The position numbers and the translations under genes were made by a program. A DNA stretch of 34,115 bases, from positions 1 to 34,115 of IMG/VR virus record IMGVR_UViG_3300035698_003120; one strand, 5' to 3'. Positions 5,352 to 33,736 of the stretch are shown here, piece by piece. Every line of letters starts with the position of its first letter. Position 1 is the first letter of the stretch. The DNA comes from a virus. The notes beneath the pieces were generated by a model. That model searched no databases, was not told the origin of the DNA, and saw nothing but the letters and a program-made list of their open reading frames with translations.

Positions 5352-8300
5352 TGGCTAGTACACCACAAGAATTCAATAGAATAGTTTATGGTATAGCTGA
5401 TTACGACAAAGAAGCACAGCCTAATAGCGTAGCTTTTATACGTAGGATTGATTATCGGTCAGACCCCAGAAAGTGGGTTCTGTTACCTAAGCCAGTTAAA
5501 GAATCTGGTGGAGTTATAACGGACTTAGTTAAATGGGGAGAACGCGTTGGAGATAATATTTATTTAGCAGGTGATTCTGGTAATGTATACAAAAGGACAC
5601 TTGCAGGGTCAGTTTCGTTATTACAAGCTACACCATCTTCTCATGGTAACGGATTAAAATATTACGGTGAAGATGACTATTTATATTACACAAGTGACAA
5701 AGTTATCGGTAGGTATGGGCGTGTTAGTGGAACTCCTATATTTGTTGATGACTTTCTAGGATCGGAAGGCGGTATCCCTTTAAATACTGCATCAATGGAT
5801 TTTGAAGCATCTTCTTCAATGTCGGCTGATGCGGCTGACTCTGCATCGTTATCAATTACAGGGGATATTTCTTTAGAAGCTTATGCAAAATTTGAGAGTT
5901 TACCTACAGTTGGCAATGAGATGGTGGTTTGTAGTAAATGGGACGAAAACAGCGACGAAAGGTCTTATAAGATGGTTATCGCTTGTGTATCTGGATATTT
6001 TGGTAATGAATCTGACGGAGCATTGACAATTGCGGCTGATACTACTGAAGCACCAATTGATTCTAGTGCGGTTGGTACTGTTAACACAAAGGCTTTGACG
6101 GCTACTAACGCTAGTTTTGCAGCAGGACAAAGAGTATTAATACATCAAACCAGAGGTACGGGGGCAGGTACTTGGCAGATAAATACTATAGATGGATATA
6201 CAGCAGGGACTATAACTTTACAGAATAGTTTAAATGCGACATACGCAACAGGCAGTGCCAATGCAGCACAAGTAAGGGTTTTAAAACAATATTCAACAGT
6301 AACTATTAATTCGACTAAAACATATACTGCTAAAGCTTGGAATGGAACAGTTGGGGGTATTCTAGCGTTCTTGGCAGGTACGGCGATTGTGGTGACAGGG
6401 AATATAACCGCTAGTGGCACAGGATTTAGAGGTGGAGCTGCAACGGTTGGTAATACTACTGGTTATGGATATAGGGGAGAAGGTACTGTTGGTGATGCTT
6501 TGACTAAGCAGATTGCTAATAATGGGAATGGTGGAGGTGGTGGTCAAGAAGAAAATGCAAACGGAGGTGGTGGCGGTGGAAATGCTAGTGCTGGTGATCG
6601 AGGTTATGGTCGTGATTCTTCACAAATCGGTGGATATGGTGGTGACGCTTCTGGTAATGCTGCGTTAACGACGATGACCTTTGGCGGTGCAGGTGGTGCT
6701 GGTATGTGTGGTAGTGCCGATGACCATAATGGATTGGCAGGTGCTAATAGCGGAGGCATAATTTTTGTAGCATCTGCTGCAACGACAGTAACAGGAACTG
6801 TAAGTGCATCTGGGTCTAGTGCTGCAGGCGGTAGTGGTCAACATTTCGGTGGTGGTGGTGGTGCAGGTGGTTCTATTTTAATTAAATCTCAAATAGCTAC
6901 GTTGGGTAGTGGATTAATAACAGCTAGTGCTGGTAGTGGTTCCACTAACTGTTATGGTGGCAGAAATGGTGGTAATGGAAGTGTAGGTAGAATACACCTA
7001 GACTACATAACCTCGTATACTGGGACAACATCTCCGACGATAAATGCTATTCAGGATAATACCTTAACTGATAATGTTGTGTATTATCTTAGGTTTTATG
7101 TGTCTGATGATGGTACGGCTAACGAATATTTAGGTTCGGAGGTTGTCGGATTTGCTGTAGATACTTGGCGACACTTTGCGGTAGCATGGGATGCGTCTGT
7201 TGCAACTGCTTATTTGTATGTTGATGGTTCATTAATTAACACTATGGTCGGCACCAAAACCGCCATATATGATAGTACAGCTTTGTTTGCGATAGCAGCT
7301 GATTATGATGGAGCTAGTGCAACTAGAAGTTTTTTAGATGGTAAAGTTGATGAAGTTAGGGTATGGAATGATATCAGAACAGCTGGTGAGATACTAGCGA
7401 ATAAAGATGCAGAAATAGCAGCTGCAGCGGCTAATTTACAAGCATATTATCAATTAGATAGTAGTGCCTCCGACGAAACGGCTAATGCTAACAATCTAAC
7501 TATACGTAACACACCAACATATAATACCGTAGATGTGCCATTTGCTTCACCTACAACAAGACGAGATATAGACCAAACAGATGCGTCTTCTGGTGCTACA
7601 TATGCTGTACAGGTAGCAATAGACGAAACTGCGACACATAGACAATCCTTTGTTCCTGCTAAAGATCCTCAAAAGTCAATTGAAATAAATGTAGCAGATA
7701 AAGGGGATACTTCTGATTGGACGATCACAGTACATGACCCATTGAATAGAGCAGTGGCAAGCAAAACAATTACAAACGCAGATTTGGTTTTAGGTGATAA
7801 TGAATTTATATTTTCTGATAATTGGACGCCTGTTATTGGTGCTACCTATCATTTTCATGTAACTGTTACATCAACAACGGGTGACCCTACATTAACTGCT
7901 GGTGGTGCTAATGATTTAGAGCAAGGGCAGTTTACAAGTTATTACCAATTTTTGGTTACAGACTCGGACTATCACCCCATCGATAATATGCTTAACTTTC
8001 TAGTTATTGGGAATGGTCGTTATGTGGCAACTTATGATGGGGCTAGTTATACTCCACATAGATTAACCTTGCCATCCACATTTAAAGTCCGTTGTTTTGC
8101 TGACTGGAGAGAATACAAGGCTATCGGTACATGGCGAGGAAGTGGTATAGAAGATTATGACGATGGATATATATTCTTCTGGGATGGTATATCGGACACG
8201 TATAATTTTTATATAAAGGTGCCAGAAGGTGCAATAAATTCAATGGTTGGTAGTCAGGGTGTGTTGAGTATTGTTGCTGGTTATCAAGGTGACTTATTGG

Positions 8301-19745: not shown

Positions 19746-19979
19746 ATGGAAAAATATAATCTAAAACAAGTTGGTGAAAGAATAGAAGAACTAACAGGAG
19801 AGAAGGTCTCTCACAATACTATCGTTTTGCATCGACGTATGGACATGATAAAACCTTATGCTATGGAGTATATCAAAGCGTTAAACAAGACTATTCCTAT
19901 GTATACAGACACCGAGATAAAAGAATATCTTGAAGCACGAAAAAACAAGGTAGACAGGAGATTTAAAACTACTAGTTGA
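19746..19979 (+). CDS. Small putative HTH DNA-binding protein
   Basis: 77 aa with TTAGGAGAAAAA ribosome-binding region. The N-terminal 40 residues (YNLKQVGERIEELTGEKVSH then NTIVLHRRMDMIKPY) look like a MerR/excisionase-type winged helix: the LKQVGERIEELTG helix, turn, and a second helix ending before a basic stretch. The C-terminus is charged and basic. It sits directly before the second early promoter (TTGACA at 19976) and is a reasonable candidate for its regulator. The HTH call is by eye. Confidence 0.45.
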   Translation: MEKYNLKQVGERIEELTGEKVSHNTIVLHRRMDMIKPYAMEYIKALNKTIPMYTDTEIKEYLEARKNKVDRRFKTTS

Positions 19980-20004
19980 CACTGTGTATGGTATAATGTA
20001 TAGT
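19976..20004 (+). promoter_or_regulatory. Early-type promoter with leader
   Basis: TTGACA 19976-19981 with TATAGT at 19999-20004 (17-nt spacer). A perfect TATAAT at 19992-19997 is closer to the -35 but could act as an alternative -10. The leader carries AAGCGGAA before ATG 20036. The leader block at 20005-20023 is nearly the same as that at 17597-17616. Confidence 0.6.
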
Positions 20005-20035: not shown

Positions 20036-20539
20036 ATGAAAATAACAACAACAAACACAACCTACAATATACCAGTAAGCGATATATTGAATAAAAAAGT
20101 TTTACCAAATATTAATAAAGGATTAGCGGTAGCAATAATATTAATGGGTACATTCGCATTAGGTATGTATACAAAACCGCTTAATGGGATTGTATTAGAT
20201 CCCGTAAGGAATATCAACATAAATGCGGGTGAACAATTAATAACTAAACTTATACCAACAACGACAAAGGGATGGATAGAACAATATTTTGATGACGATT
20301 CTGAGTGGGCTTTATCATGTTTTAAATCAGAGAGTGGATTAAATCCAAATGCTAATCATATTAATAATAATGGGACTATAGATAGAGGACTGGCACAAGT
20401 TAATTCAGTACATTGCGGAAAAGTAAATGGAGATTGTGAGAGATTATACGAAACCGAAGAAAACCTAAGAGTAGCCAAGATCATACATGACACACAAGGA
20501 AAGCAAGCATGGTATGGATCAGGGTGTAGCACATTATAG
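20036..20539 (+). CDS. Membrane-anchored lysozyme/transglycosylase-like protein
   Basis: 167 aa. N-terminal cytoplasmic segment, a TM helix at about 29-46 (GLAVAIILMGTFALGMYT), then a lysozyme-like SLT domain: 'WALSCFKSESGLNPNANHIN' with the likely catalytic Glu at 99, 'NGTIDRGLAQVNSVH' (the G-L-x-Q-x-N motif of goose-type lysozymes/transglycosylases) and 'NLRVAKIIHD' followed by WYGSG. Cys residues at about 95, 127, 134 and 164 could form disulphides outside the membrane. The enzyme would cleave glycan strands from the outer face of the membrane. It is encoded in the early/middle region, 6 kb from the CHAP endolysin, so it may serve something other than final lysis. Confidence 0.7.
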   Translation: MKITTTNTTYNIPVSDILNKKVLPNINKGLAVAIILMGTFALGMYTKPLNGIVLDPVRNININAGEQLITKLIPTTTKGWIEQYFDDDSEWALSCFKSESGLNPNANHINNNGTIDRGLAQVNSVHCGKVNGDCERLYETEENLRVAKIIHDTQGKQAWYGSGCSTL

Positions 20540-20543
20540 ATAA

Positions 20544-20715
20544 CAGATAACTGCGGTTCATGACGCCTTATTCTACAGGGTAAGTTGTGGGCGATGGTCT
20601 ACGGAATGTATGAACGGCAGCTATCTGCGATTGCATGATGCTCATCTCCTATCAGGTGGGTATCATGGAGCCGTCTATTTTATAGGCAGGCAGAAATTTA
20701 TATACGGATGGCTCC
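20544..20715 (+). ncRNA. Three-hairpin structured RNA element
   Basis: The 208-nt gap 20540-20747 has no credible coding frame but folds strikingly. Hairpin A: 20544-20561 with 20610-20627 (16 of 18 pairs), enclosing CGCC/GGCG (20564-20567 with 20590-20593) and CTTA/TAAG. Hairpin B: 20634-20646 with 20655-20667, 13 pairs including G-U wobbles, 7-nt loop. Hairpin C: 20667-20675 with 20707-20715 (GGAGCCGTC/GATGGCTCC, one wobble), abutting B (shared base 20667). No T-tract follows, so it is not a simple terminator. A ribosome binding site and ATG 20748 follow 18-33 nt later. It may be a free RNA processed from the transcript or a cis-regulatory leader. No known family recognised. Confidence 0.65.
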
Positions 20716-20747
20716 AATTGAGTTGTTAATTATTTAGGAGATAAATT

Positions 20748-21341
20748 ATGGAAGAAAAAGAATTAATGAAAATAGTTGACGAAAGTGGATTGCAGGAGAA
20801 TACATTGCAAATATTACTAGACTCTTATGCAGGATTTTATGACAAAGCTAGAGAGTTGGTTGAGAAATCTAGGGATATTAAGGTTACAGATGTTGAACAA
20901 ACTAGCGTAATGCAAAAAGTTAGAGAGTTAAGGTTGGAGATACAAAGGGTTCAGGTAGAAGAGCAAGAAAAACTTGCAGAAAAACTACAAGAAGCAAAGG
21001 ACAACGCAACAGAGCAAAAGAGGATAGAAGAATTATCTGAATATGTCGAGGATATAGAAGCATATAAATTACACCCCAGCGATATGTTAACAGATACATT
21101 CATGCAACTTCTAAAATCTTCTAAAATTGTATATGAGGCACAGGTTAAGGCGGAACAAGAAGCAGAAAAACAAAGGATTGCAGATAAGGGATTGGCAGAA
21201 AAGAGACGTGTTGTAGATGAGAGGAAAGCCAAAGAATCAGCGCCAGACAAAAAGAAATTTGACGAGAAACTTGGCAATCCAATGGAACAGATAGATGCAT
21301 TAATAGAGCAAGCTAAGAAATTAAAGGAAGAATTAAAATGA
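20748..21341 (+). CDS. Coiled-coil protein of unknown function
   Basis: 197 aa with TTAGGAGAT ribosome binding site. Continuous heptad-like helix rich in Glu/Lys/Gln (residues 30-115 and 130-197), e.g. 'VRELRLEIQRVQVEEQEKLA' and 'QEAEKQRIADKGLAEKRRVV', with a short hydrophobic break near 110-125. Long coiled-coil proteins are common beside phage recombination genes and can act as nuclease inhibitors or scaffolds. No specific motif to choose between these. It is the first gene behind the structured RNA, so its translation may be under RNA control. Confidence 0.6.
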   Translation: MEEKELMKIVDESGLQENTLQILLDSYAGFYDKARELVEKSRDIKVTDVEQTSVMQKVRELRLEIQRVQVEEQEKLAEKLQEAKDNATEQKRIEELSEYVEDIEAYKLHPSDMLTDTFMQLLKSSKIVYEAQVKAEQEAEKQRIADKGLAEKRRVVDERKAKESAPDKKKFDEKLGNPMEQIDALIEQAKKLKEELK

Positions 21342-21475: not shown

Positions 21476-21772
21476 ATGATATACAGACACGGCGATTTAT
21501 TAATTCGTCCAATAAAAAAAATACCAGGTGGCAAGAAGATAAAAGATAATATCTTAGCCTATGGCGAAGTAACGGGGCACCATCACAAGTTAGTTGGCGG
21601 TGTTAGTGTGATTCAGGATACACAGGGGAATAGGTTCTTTGAAGCATTTAAACCTGTTGAGCTATCACACCAAGAACACAAAACCATAACCATAGAGAAA
21701 GGCACCTACGAAGTGCTGATAGAACGTGAATATGATTACTTCGTCAGAGAAGCAAGGAAGGTCGTTGACTAA
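21476..21772 (+). CDS. HGD-type small protein, partner of the DUF6745-like gene
   Basis: 98 aa with AGGAGATAG ribosome binding site. Sequence order 'YRHGDLLIRPIKKIP', 'AYGEVTGHHHKL', 'VELSHQEHKTITIEKGTYEV', 'REYDYFVREARKVVD' is a pattern I recognise from small uncharacterised proteins in many bacteria, where the gene lies beside a DUF6745-type gene. The conserved HGD, EVTGHxHxL, HxEHxxI and REYD motifs with many His suggest metal binding or a cupin-like fold. The overlap with the next start codon (TAATG) shows they are co-translated. Biochemical function unknown. Confidence 0.65.
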   Translation: MIYRHGDLLIRPIKKIPGGKKIKDNILAYGEVTGHHHKLVGGVSVIQDTQGNRFFEAFKPVELSHQEHKTITIEKGTYEVLIEREYDYFVREARKVVD

Positions 21773-22875
21773 TGGTTGAGAAGCTAACGCCCACACAAGA
21801 GAAACTAATGTATAAAGTTAGAGATGAGTGGCTTAGTAAGCTGTTTGGGTGCGATAACAACATAGATGAGGACAAACTTAAAAAGGGTATTGATTGGTTA
21901 TATGGATTGACTGGATTTAATAATCCAAAAGTCATAGTGCTTGATTCCCCATTAGGTGTGCAATATTGTTGTAATATATTGCACCAAGCAGGGAACCAAG
22001 TAGGGGGCCAAGTATGGGAACAAGTAAGGGAACAAGTAGTGGGCCAAGTAAGGAACCAAGTAATGCACCAAGCAGGGAACCAAGTAAGGGGCCAAGTAGG
22101 GGACCAAGTATGGGAACAAGTATGGGAACAAATAAGGGAACAAGTAGGGGAACAAATAAGGGACCAAGTAGGGAGACAAGTAGAGGGCCAAGTAAGGGAC
22201 CACGTAAGGAACCAGAAAATAGAAATGTATCCGTTTTCTTGGCGTAGTAATGTAGCTAACTATGGTTGGGTTTCTTTCTATGACTTCTTTTCAAAGATTG
22301 GGATAGTGAAACACGCAGAATTTGACAATTTTGTAATGTTGCTAGATTCAGGTATTTATGATTGCGTGCAGTTTGAGGATTGTTGTGTTGTGTCACGTAA
22401 ACCGACTAAGATAAGCAGAGACAATAACAACAACTTACATAATGATGAAGGACAATATGCGGTAGAGTGGGCTGATGGTTATGGGCAATATTACATTAAT
22501 GGGGTTGCGTTAGACGAGGACTTGTATAAGGATATAATCAGCAAAAGGATAAAGTTTGACGAGGTAATGGCAATAAAAAACATAGAACAGCGGATGATTG
22601 CGCTTAAATATATAGAACCAGAGCATTTATTGATTCAAGCAGAGGCAGAGCTAATTGACTCATCGGAGCGTGGCAACGAGCTATGGATAGTTGATAACAA
22701 GGATCTGTTTGAAGACAAGGCATACTTTCTTAAATATACATGCCCAAGCACTGCTAGGGTGTATATGTCAGGCATAGACCCAGCGTTTGCAGTAGGCAAA
22801 AAAGCTGATGAATGTATGGCATGGAAACATCATTTGACTGTAGAAGAGTATAGTGAGTTAAGTATTGAGAGTTAA
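21772..22875 (+). CDS. DUF6745-like protein with Q-V tetrad repeats
   Basis: 367 aa. Residues 1-68 are helical and carry 'VIVLDSPLGVQYCCNILHQA'. Residues 71-148 consist of about 19 tandem 4-residue units of the type QVxE/QVxD (EQVREQVVGQVRNQV), encoded by 12-bp repeats. They should form a long amphipathic helix. After the repeat come 'NYGWVSFYDFFSKIGI', 'YAVEWADGYGQYYINGVALD' and a C-terminal 'STARVYMSGIDPAFAVGKKA' then 'CMAWKHHLTVEEYS'. These blocks in this order match uncharacterised DUF6745 proteins of diverse bacteria. Coupled to the HGD-type gene by TAATG. No enzymatic signature. Because the pair is widespread and kept in a compact phage, it likely forms a functional unit. Confidence 0.65.
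   Translation: MVEKLTPTQEKLMYKVRDEWLSKLFGCDNNIDEDKLKKGIDWLYGLTGFNNPKVIVLDSPLGVQYCCNILHQAGNQVGGQVWEQVREQVVGQVRNQVMHQAGNQVRGQVGDQVWEQVWEQIREQVGEQIRDQVGRQVEGQVRDHVRNQKIEMYPFSWRSNVANYGWVSFYDFFSKIGIVKHAEFDNFVMLLDSGIYDCVQFEDCCVVSRKPTKISRDNNNNLHNDEGQYAVEWADGYGQYYINGVALDEDLYKDIISKRIKFDEVMAIKNIEQRMIALKYIEPEHLLIQAEAELIDSSERGNELWIVDNKDLFEDKAYFLKYTCPSTARVYMSGIDPAFAVGKKADECMAWKHHLTVEEYSELSIES
21982..22215 (+). repeat. 12-bp tandem repeat array inside the DUF6745-like gene
   Basis: About 19 copies of a degenerate 12-bp unit of the form CAAGTAnGGGAn, in frame with a Gln-Val-x-x peptide repeat. The period is an exact codon multiple and no spacers exist, so this is a coding minisatellite, not CRISPR. Unit identity is high enough for expansion or contraction by recombination. 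Confidence 0.85.
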
Positions 22876-23280: not shown

Positions 23281-23285
23281 TAATT

Positions 23286-23405
23286 ATGATAAATCAAAGT
23301 AATGAATACGACAACATACAAAAATCGATGGAAGCTAATGCAGGTTGTATATTATTAGTGTTTACATTGTTAATAATTTATTTAGTTCTATGCGCAATAC
23401 TTTAG
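23286..23405 (+). CDS. 39-aa single-pass membrane microprotein
   Basis: ATG 23286 to TAG 23403-23405. N-terminal polar segment (MINQSNEYDNIQKSMEAN) followed by one TM helix (GCILLVFTLLIIYLVLCAIL) that ends the protein. Follows the previous stop by 5 nt. No clear ribosome binding site. Support comes from codon-level TM composition and fit in the operon. Confidence 0.4.
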   Translation: MINQSNEYDNIQKSMEANAGCILLVFTLLIIYLVLCAIL

Positions 23406-23504
23406 ATGGTTAAATTTGGGGGTAGGCTTGCTTAATCGCAAAAAAAGAAACTGTCACACGAATAAAAATAATAAGTACAGATTTCTATAACAGCGTTAAG
23501 TCAG

Positions 23505-23522
23505 CTAATCCCTCGAGATTAG
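23505..23522. other. Short hairpin in the gap before the late operon
   Basis: The 166-nt gap 23406-23571 is non-coding. CTAATC (23505-23510) pairs with GATTAG (23517-23522), with the palindrome CTCGAG across the loop edge. A second short inverted repeat (GCCAT/ATGGC, 23533-23550) follows. No T-tract, so not a strong terminator. It could be a regulatory or packaging-related site; nothing decides. Confidence 0.35.
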
Positions 23523-23537
23523 TCATTTAATAGCCAT

Positions 23538-23565
23538 TTGATATTATGGCAATAGAGGTTATAAT
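23538..23565 (+). promoter_or_regulatory. Leaderless promoter of the chaperonin/packaging operon
   Basis: TTGATA at 23538-23543, 16-nt spacer, TATAAT at 23560-23565, then exactly 6 nt to ATG 23572. It starts the unit HTH gene-GroEL. Confidence 0.75.
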
Positions 23566-23571
23566 AGGGTT

Positions 23572-23801: not shown

Positions 23802-25430
23802 ATGAAAGAAACACCACGAGAATATATGAAGTTTAATTCTGATGCTAGAGATAAGCTTGTCGAAGGAGCATCTCTTATGTACAAAGCCGTTGTATCAACA
23901 CTAAGCCCAAAGGGTCGTAACGTTGCAATTGCAAGACAATGGGGAGCGCCTATTGTAGTGCATGATGGGGTGACTGTAGCAAGAGAGGCAAAATCTTCCG
24001 ATAGATTTACGCAGGCTGGGATTGATTTAGTTAGAGAAGCAGCTACAAGAACTAATGAAGAGGCAGGAGACGGAACAACTACATCCACATTAATATCATA
24101 CGAAACTATAGCAAGGGGAATGAAGCTATTAGATGATGGTGTAAATCCAATGATTCTTAGGAGCGAGATAAATATAGCATTATATGAAGCGTTAGAAGAA
24201 TTACAAAAATTAAGTAAAAAAGCTAAGACTCAACAAGATTTGGAGATGGTGGCAACTATATCAGCAGCCGACGCAAAAATCGGTAAATTAGTAGGAGAAA
24301 CGGTGTATCGTACTGGTACTGATGGATTAGTAAGTGTTGAAGAGTCAAATGGTTACGACACTATTGTAGAACATAGTGAGGGTATGTCTTTGGACAAAGG
24401 TTTTGCTTCACCATATTTTGTAACGAATCTTAACCGTATGGAGTCAGTCATTAGTAGCCCGATTGTCATCATTACAGATACGACAATTACAACAAATAAT
24501 GAGATAGTCCCTGTTATTGAATTTATTATACAGAGTGAATCTATTAATAATAAGAACATTGTTATTATTGGTGATATTGGCGGTCAAGCGTTACAGACGT
24601 TGGTAACAAATAAAATGAAAGGTGTTATTAACTGTTGTGTTATAAAAACACCAGGATATGGAATGTTGTCTTATGGATTATTGGAAGATATTGCAATCTT
24701 AACAGGAGGTAAAGTTATTAGAAAAGAACTAGGTCTGAATATTGAACAGTTCAATGAACAGTTTGATAATTCTTATCTAGGTCACGCAGAAAAGATCGTG
24801 GCAGGTAGAAATAATGCAATGATTGTAAGTGGTCGTGGTGATGTTGATTCTGTAAAGGCACAAATTAAAAGATTAAAGAGTCAAAGAGAAAGCGCCGAGA
24901 GTATCCCAGAAAAAGAAAACCTTGATGAACGTATAGCTAAATTATCATCTGGTGTAAGTGTTATCCGAGTTGGGGCTAAGACAGAGATAGAAGGCAGGGA
25001 AAAGGTAGAGCGTGTTAAAGATGCAGTAGGAGCTGCACAGTCTGCATTAAAGGAAGGGATTGTATCGGGTAGTGGAGTTACATTCTTGAGATTGGCCAAT
25101 GCAATAAAAGGCGATAGTGATGGTGCTAGATTGATGCGAGAAGTACTAGAACAACCAATACGCAAAGTCATGGAAAACTCAGGAGAACCAGATAAAATAA
25201 TCAAAGAATATTTAAAGAAAATAAAAGAACACAAAGATACCGATTATGGCTATGAATGTATAACTGGTAAGTTAACTCATATGTATAAGTCAGGGATTAT
25301 AGATCCAACCAAAGTAATTAGATTGTGTTTAGAAAATGGTGTGAGTGTAGCAACTAGTATTCTAACTACAGATACAATTATTGATTACGAGGACATCGAC
25401 CCTAAACAGGGAGTACTAGGTGGCAGATAA
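23802..25430 (+). CDS. groEL: GroEL-like group I chaperonin (Cpn60)
   Basis: 542 aa, full length (E. coli 548). Chaperonins fold client proteins in an ATP-driven double-ring chamber. Conserved elements: 'LSPKGRNVAI' (35-44), 'HDGVTVA' with the ATP-site Asp (D55), 'AGDGTTT' (GDGTT, D90), apical-domain surface 'FASPYF' (compare YLSPYF), 'IVPVIE', 'ALQTLVTN' that bind substrate and GroES, 'KTPGYG', hinge residues, 'VKDAVGAAQSALKEGIVSGSG' carrying the catalytic Asp (D407, equivalent to E. coli D398), and 'GIIDPTKV' near the C-terminus. The flexible GGM tail is missing; it ends PKQGVLGGR. TATAAA 7 nt upstream of the ATG may give it an extra leaderless start. Its GTG-initiated neighbour overlaps its end. 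Likely works with the phage GroES at 12949. Confidence 0.95.
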   Translation: MKETPREYMKFNSDARDKLVEGASLMYKAVVSTLSPKGRNVAIARQWGAPIVVHDGVTVAREAKSSDRFTQAGIDLVREAATRTNEEAGDGTTTSTLISYETIARGMKLLDDGVNPMILRSEINIALYEALEELQKLSKKAKTQQDLEMVATISAADAKIGKLVGETVYRTGTDGLVSVEESNGYDTIVEHSEGMSLDKGFASPYFVTNLNRMESVISSPIVIITDTTITTNNEIVPVIEFIIQSESINNKNIVIIGDIGGQALQTLVTNKMKGVINCCVIKTPGYGMLSYGLLEDIAILTGGKVIRKELGLNIEQFNEQFDNSYLGHAEKIVAGRNNAMIVSGRGDVDSVKAQIKRLKSQRESAESIPEKENLDERIAKLSSGVSVIRVGAKTEIEGREKVERVKDAVGAAQSALKEGIVSGSGVTFLRLANAIKGDSDGARLMREVLEQPIRKVMENSGEPDKIIKEYLKKIKEHKDTDYGYECITGKLTHMYKSGIIDPTKVIRLCLENGVSVATSILTTDTIIDYEDIDPKQGVLGGR

Positions 25431-30473: not shown

Positions 30474-30688
30474 AACAATTAACACCAGAGGAACTGAAGA
30501 AGAACAAGGCGCTAAAGAATAGGGCTAAGTATGAGCCTTCATACGATGAGAACTGGGCTGTTGTTGATTCACTGGTCGCAGAAGCATACGGCGAATATGA
30601 AGAGAAGGGTAATTTTTCTAAATGTTTAAAAATATTAGGTAACAAAATACTAGAGTTATCAAAGAAGAATATTAAGCCTATCGCTTGA
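30470..30688 (+). CDS. Small helical protein between portal and capsid genes
   Basis: 72 aa, ATGA overlap. Charged helical N-terminus (TPEELKKNKALKNRAKYEPS) and a second helix pair (AVVDSLVAEAYGEYEEKGNF). Position between portal and major capsid is where scaffolding proteins usually sit, but the protein is too short for a normal scaffold. It may be a core or accessory assembly protein. The strong MCP promoter begins in its final codons. Confidence 0.55.
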   Translation: MKQLTPEELKKNKALKNRAKYEPSYDENWAVVDSLVAEAYGEYEEKGNFSKCLKILGNKILELSKKNIKPIA

Positions 30689-30713
30689 CATAAAAACCAC
30701 ACACGAATATAAT
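30685..30713 (+). promoter_or_regulatory. Strong consensus promoter of the major capsid gene
   Basis: TTGACA 30685-30690, 17-nt spacer, TATAAT 30708-30713: a perfect housekeeping promoter. The start codon is 96 nt further, so this transcript has a long leader, unlike most other late genes here. Confidence 0.88.
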
Positions 30714-32690: not shown

Positions 32691-32725
32691 CGTAGAGAGA
32701 AAGCCCCTCTACGGAGGGGTTTTTT
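32691..32725 (+). terminator. Intrinsic terminator with an overlapping alternative hairpin
   Basis: CCCCTC (32704-32709), loop TACG (UNCG-type), GAGGGG (32714-32719), T6 tract 32720-32725. An alternative stem CGTAGAG (32691-32697) with CTCTACG (32707-32713) would consume the terminator's 5' arm and loop. The rest of the 124-nt gap shows only a ribosome binding site (AAGGTGGTGA) before ATG 32758. Confidence 0.8.
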
Positions 32726-33684: not shown

Positions 33685-33706
33685 TATAACAACGAGAAGT
33701 TACGAG

Positions 33707-33736
33707 AAGGGCCAGTATAAAAGCTGGCTCTTTTTT
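33707..33736 (+). terminator. Intrinsic terminator after the beta-helix gene
   Basis: GGGCCAG (33709-33715) pairs with CTGGCTC (33724-33730, one G-T), 8-nt loop, extended by AA/TT and followed by T6 (33731-33736). Confidence 0.82.

Follow-up and report, generated by a model that had tools for sequence, protein, structure and literature searches.

A strongly folded RNA element in an intergenic gap of the early region of an uncultured phage: predicted architecture and candidate functions

The mRNA of lambda cIII adopts two alternative folds, one of which hides the Shine-Dalgarno (SD) sequence and the AUG, and RNase III shifts the balance between them. RNase III sites built on a long stem are known from the phages T7 and lambda. 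Among large phage-associated RNAs, structures of GOLLD and ROOL are available (PMC12286853). Here we describe a folded intercistronic element from an IMG/VR phage record that represents an uncultured bacterial virus; the window is the whole analysed stretch of 34,115 bases. The locus consists of the following features.

19976-20004, + strand: putative sigma-70-like promoter, TTGACA-17-TATAGT, 11/12 consensus positions, the likely start of the transcript carrying the element
20036-20539, + strand: upstream gene, lysozyme/transglycosylase-like (SLT), 167 aa, with matches to PF18896 and phrog_34720
20540-20720, + strand: the whole structured RNA element
20736-20740, + strand: SD sequence AGGAG of the downstream gene
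20748-21341, + strand: downstream gene, coiled-coil-like, 197 aa, without an assigned family, start codon at 20748

Both neighbouring genes are coded on the + strand, and the element nearly fills the 208-nt gap between them; a good SD sequence follows its 3' end after about 15 nt. The first-pass annotation had likewise placed it just upstream of a ribosome binding site at about 20735. The two neighbours are early genes, and the surrounding replication/recombination module encodes a DnaD-like helicase loader, ERF and a YqaJ exonuclease. The protein of the upstream gene matches PF18896 at an E value of 8e-5, which is below the cutoff, and the transglycosylase family phrog_34720 at 3e-4. A PtuB match of the coiled-coil protein (E 5e-5) was discarded, as it covers residues 40-134 only and composition is its probable cause. 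No promoter or terminator of the element's own was found, so the element probably lies inside an operon mRNA. Downstream of it, no terminator-like site occurs on the + strand before a weak one at 30.4 kb, followed by those at about 32.7 and 33.7 kb. ARAGORN yielded no tRNA or tmRNA match in the window. Several other features of the window were recorded along the way. The open reading frame at 21772-22875 contains a 12-nt tandem repeat in sixteen registers (21948-22235) that is translated into a four-residue peptide repeat (GQVWEQVREQV...). A predicted sigma-70-type promoter of perfect consensus, TTGACA-17-TATAAT, lies at 30685-30713 before the likely major capsid gene (30810), and terminator-like sites follow the capsid genes at 32698-32725 and 33704-33735.

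As + strand RNA, positions 20540-20720 fold at -68.3 kcal/mol, compared with -47.5 ± 4.0 kcal/mol for dinucleotide shuffles (z -5.25), and none of the 6000 shuffles was as stable, a comparison on which the first-pass annotation had staked its claim. The - strand gave a z of -2.3, a value reached by 106 of 6000 shuffles. When 172-nt stretches were compared across the full window and both strands, the one at 20555 had the lowest energy of all; among the candidates re-estimated with 400 shuffles, the element had the lowest z, followed by 23393-23564 (z -4.7). The individual parts are rare as well: of 2000 shuffles, one contained an inverted repeat with 16 of 18 positions paired and two contained a 14-bp hairpin. 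The fold of the element is real and far beyond chance. For the second half (20628-20720), z is -3.8 when it is read as + strand and +0.05 as - strand RNA, whereas the P1 arms fold well on both (z -4.3 and -5.1). Since good folding of the second half is confined to + strand RNA, selection has probably acted on the RNA of the coding strand and not on the DNA. The earlier proposal that selection acts on an RNA structure here is thus well supported by folding energy and strand asymmetry. Elsewhere in the window, the intergenic stretch 23281-23571 holds a long imperfect + strand hairpin (23393-23564; 1 of 400 shuffles) that lacks a U-tract; taken whole, this gap folds less strongly (z about -2 to -2.6). 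The promoter-like sequence TTGATA-16-TATAAT at 23538 overlaps it.

The predicted fold comprises a three-way junction, a 14-bp hairpin and a 9-bp hairpin, possibly closed by a 6-bp helix, with 61 pairs in all, 14 of them G-U. Its parts are listed here.

20544-20627, + strand: domain 1, a three-way junction of an irregular stem with 18-nt arms and two inner hairpins; z -4.3, helix probabilities 0.82-1.0
20628-20633, + strand: 5' strand of a possible closing helix, pairing with 20715-20720
20634-20667, + strand: hairpin 2, 14 bp (20634-20647/20654-20667) with the loop CCUAUC; mean pair probability 0.91-0.97
20634-20651, + strand: arm of hairpin 2 with a possible alternative pairing to the next gene's SD sequence and start codon (20735-20742 and 20745-20750)
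20668-20714, + strand: hairpin 3, found by folding, 9 bp at its base (20668-20676/20706-20714) with weak inner pairing

Three adjacent stems had been described at this place from the sequence, and folding retains them with some refinements. In the first (arms 20544-20561/20610-20627), 16 of 18 positions are paired and the other two are A.C and G.G mismatches; its arms enclose not one internal stem, as had been thought, but two hairpins at about 20567-20573/20578-20584 and 20585-20592/20597-20604. The second stem does carry G-U pairs (3 of 14) and is 14 rather than 13 bp long, and the 9-bp third stem adjoins it as described. The sharing of base 20667 between two pairings also holds, since G20667 can take either C20634 or C20715 as its partner. 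The 6-bp helix 20628-20633/20715-20720, which the first-pass annotation had not described, can join hairpins 2 and 3 in another junction that has no unpaired linkers; its mean pair probability is 0.82 when 20540-20722 is folded alone and 0.22 in a 500-nt context. The loop of hairpin 2 contains a 5-nt complement (20648-20652) to 20682-20686, for which we estimate a chance of about 5%. The G+C content of the element is 46%, compared with 37% for the window. As the first-pass annotation had noted, the element lacks both a T-tract and an open reading frame: no stem is followed by a U-tract, so the element is not an intrinsic terminator, and no frame of at least 60 aa is present. Shorter frames were rejected as genes, namely a 61-codon open frame without a start codon, a 38-codon ATG frame without an SD sequence and a 6-codon frame (MEPSIL) whose SD sequence and AUG are buried in hairpin 2. 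The last of these (20665-20685; ATG GAG CCG TCT ATT TTA TAG, preceded by AGGTGG) has these signals in the 3' arm of the hairpin, and it is possibly a leader peptide or merely a by-product of mimicking the downstream ribosome binding site.

The 5' arm of hairpin 2 carries AUCUCCUA, the exact 8-nt complement of UAGGAGAU around the SD sequence of gene 20748, and in the same arm CAUGAU can pair with AUUAUG over the start codon of that gene. Together they give a predicted duplex of 14 pairs at -15.3 kcal/mol; 1% of shuffles reach this value. With this duplex formed the start would be closed, and with hairpin 2 intact it would be open. For the transcript 20629-20770 the closed state is the minimum-energy fold (-36.0 kcal/mol). 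When domain 1 is included and the transcript ends at 20752 or 20770, the open state is ahead by 1.3 kcal/mol; the two states lie within 1-2 kcal/mol of each other for transcripts ending at 20752-20770, and the open state leads by 4-6 kcal/mol once a longer coding region is included. Across whole-element transcripts at 37 C, the open state is favoured by 1.3-6.4 kcal/mol. Since the open state wins by 4-6 kcal/mol with more coding region, the closed state may never form. Equally strong upstream complements occur at 2 of the 36 other gene starts of the window (37 starts in all), and for this reason the alternative pairing may be due to chance. Control of the downstream operon, which the first-pass annotation had suggested, is plausible in that the element abuts a good ribosome binding site and hairpin 2 holds a complement to that site and the start codon. 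Because the pairing has a rarity of only about 1%, the default is open and two other starts are alike, a translational switch is a concrete proposal that is unproven and not established.

The search for relatives covered known RNA families, sequence matches and structure. None of the families of Rfam 15 matched at the gathering threshold, or at an E value of 10 on the relevant strand; the best sub-threshold match was sR35 (10 bits, E 5.9) on the opposite strand. Using blastn, the element had no match in 50,697 phage and 72,556 plasmid records. Its stop-free frame was used as a pseudo-protein query in IMG/VR and GTDB contigs, and the sole match (L040, Myxococcales) was judged spurious, its structure not matching. 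Three DNA-pattern scans of IMG/VR produced 91 loci, which were searched with the single-sequence model R1 and gave partial hairpin matches only; nhmmer and blastn on all loci returned nothing. The best R1 match (L109) runs antisense to the stop codon and SD sequence of another gene and was put down to chance. In scans that reach close relatives only, neither covariance model, nhmmer nor blastn recovered a structural relative, and because of this reach the absence does not show that the element is unique. Relatives found through the large terminase share virion genes, the closer relatives being 45-78% identical in terminase, portal and capsid; they contain no counterpart of the early-module genes at 15.1-23.8 kb. 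The structured gaps of these relatives hold long hairpins, terminators or other folds unlike the element. One of these relatives (L033) has a near-perfect hairpin of about 24 bp on the - strand at 5805-6041, in the gap that separates its virion module from its early module, and no sequence in the window resembles it. A phage-encoded GroEL (23802-25430) lies just upstream of the terminase, with 40-57% identity in most closer relatives. The nearest isolate phages have a terminase identity below 35%.

Computation shows the fold, the strand on which it forms, how rarely it arises by chance and that an alternative pairing exists. The element is probably a stretch of viral mRNA with a part in tuning or processing the genes that follow. 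We favour, with a probability of roughly 0.45, a cis-acting intercistronic element of an early mRNA that isolates or processes the two-gene junction and leaves the next ribosome binding site open. According to this reading, transcription would start from the promoter near 19976 and, meeting no terminator, continue past the end of the transglycosylase-like gene and into the coiled-coil one. The RNA between the genes would fold into the three-way junction and then two stacked hairpins, and in this default fold the SD sequence and AUG of gene 20748 would stay open, shielded from upstream RNA. If hairpin 2 were disturbed, by a ribosome, by a ligand or protein or through cleavage by a double-strand-specific RNase, the arm 20634-20651 might be freed to cover the SD sequence and AUG. 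The bolder version, in which the element represents a new class of structured phage RNAs (about 180 nt, two adjacent three-way junctions) and switches translation of the early operon through the hairpin 2 arm, seems doubtful to us.

Some of the same properties would also fit an RNA that acts in trans. A free, folded phage RNA cut from the operon mRNA, serving for example as a decoy or as a regulator of host or phage targets, is consistent with the compact fold with two junctions, with a G+C content above that of the genome and with the loop complement 20648-20652/20682-20686, which could give a tertiary contact. The first-pass annotation had offered a free phage RNA as well; no promoter or terminator of its own backs the claim, although processing from the operon mRNA could produce such an RNA, and neither a relative in the collections searched nor an Rfam match was found, so that we consider it unlikely, if a serious contender. 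An mRNA processing or stability element would involve no switch: the stem with 18-nt arms and hairpin 2 would be RNase III substrates or exonuclease roadblocks and would separate expression of the lysis-like gene from that of the downstream genes. The gap between the two genes does contain predicted stems of about 17-19 pairs interrupted by mismatches, and the missing U-tract, which speaks against a terminator, agrees with it. The junction is more complex than a processing site needs, and we rate the pure form of this explanation as rather improbable, while noting that it overlaps the preferred reading of a cis-acting junction element.

Inverted repeats can resemble RNA structure when they serve at the DNA level, as a replication origin or a protein-binding palindrome. 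The folding of the P1 arms on both strands and the nearby replication module (DnaD-like, ERF, YqaJ) would suit such a site. However, only as + strand RNA does the second half fold, and the 14 G-U pairs among the 61 would be mismatches in DNA; G-U pairs and strand asymmetry together point to coding-strand RNA, leaving a DNA element very improbable. Equally structured, early in its operon and free of a U-tract would be an antitermination RNA of the kind exemplified by HK022 put or the EAR element, which enables RNA polymerase to pass terminators farther downstream. Here the next clear + strand terminator-like sites come only at about 32.7 and 33.7 kb (with the weaker site at 30.4 kb), so that the 9.7 kb following the element offer no terminator to read through, and the Rfam search of known RNA families gave no match; this function is hardly probable at all.

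At present the locus may be summarized as one well-supported fold, without relatives found or an assigned function. If it is real and regulatory, it would bring a point of RNA-based control to the early genes of an uncultured phage group and stand as a candidate for a new RNA family. The locus also illustrates how orphan RNAs in variable phage modules are missed by homology-based catalogues. With GOLLD, ROOL and other large phage-associated RNAs the element shares an elaborate noncoding fold in phage DNA with no known function, but it is much shorter than GOLLD or ROOL (about 180 nt) and matches nothing in Rfam. Like the RNase III processing sites of the T7 type, it is predicted to place a long, irregular stem between two genes of the same operon; unlike them, it has a three-way junction and further hairpins. 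The likeness to lambda cIII lies in a stable hairpin arm that can instead pair with the SD sequence and start codon of the same mRNA, here by prediction, whereas the element is larger, intercistronic and predicted to be open by default, has an additional three-way junction and bears no sequence relation to cIII. The element matches no known family and is a candidate of a familiar kind, a structured phage leader or intercistronic RNA.
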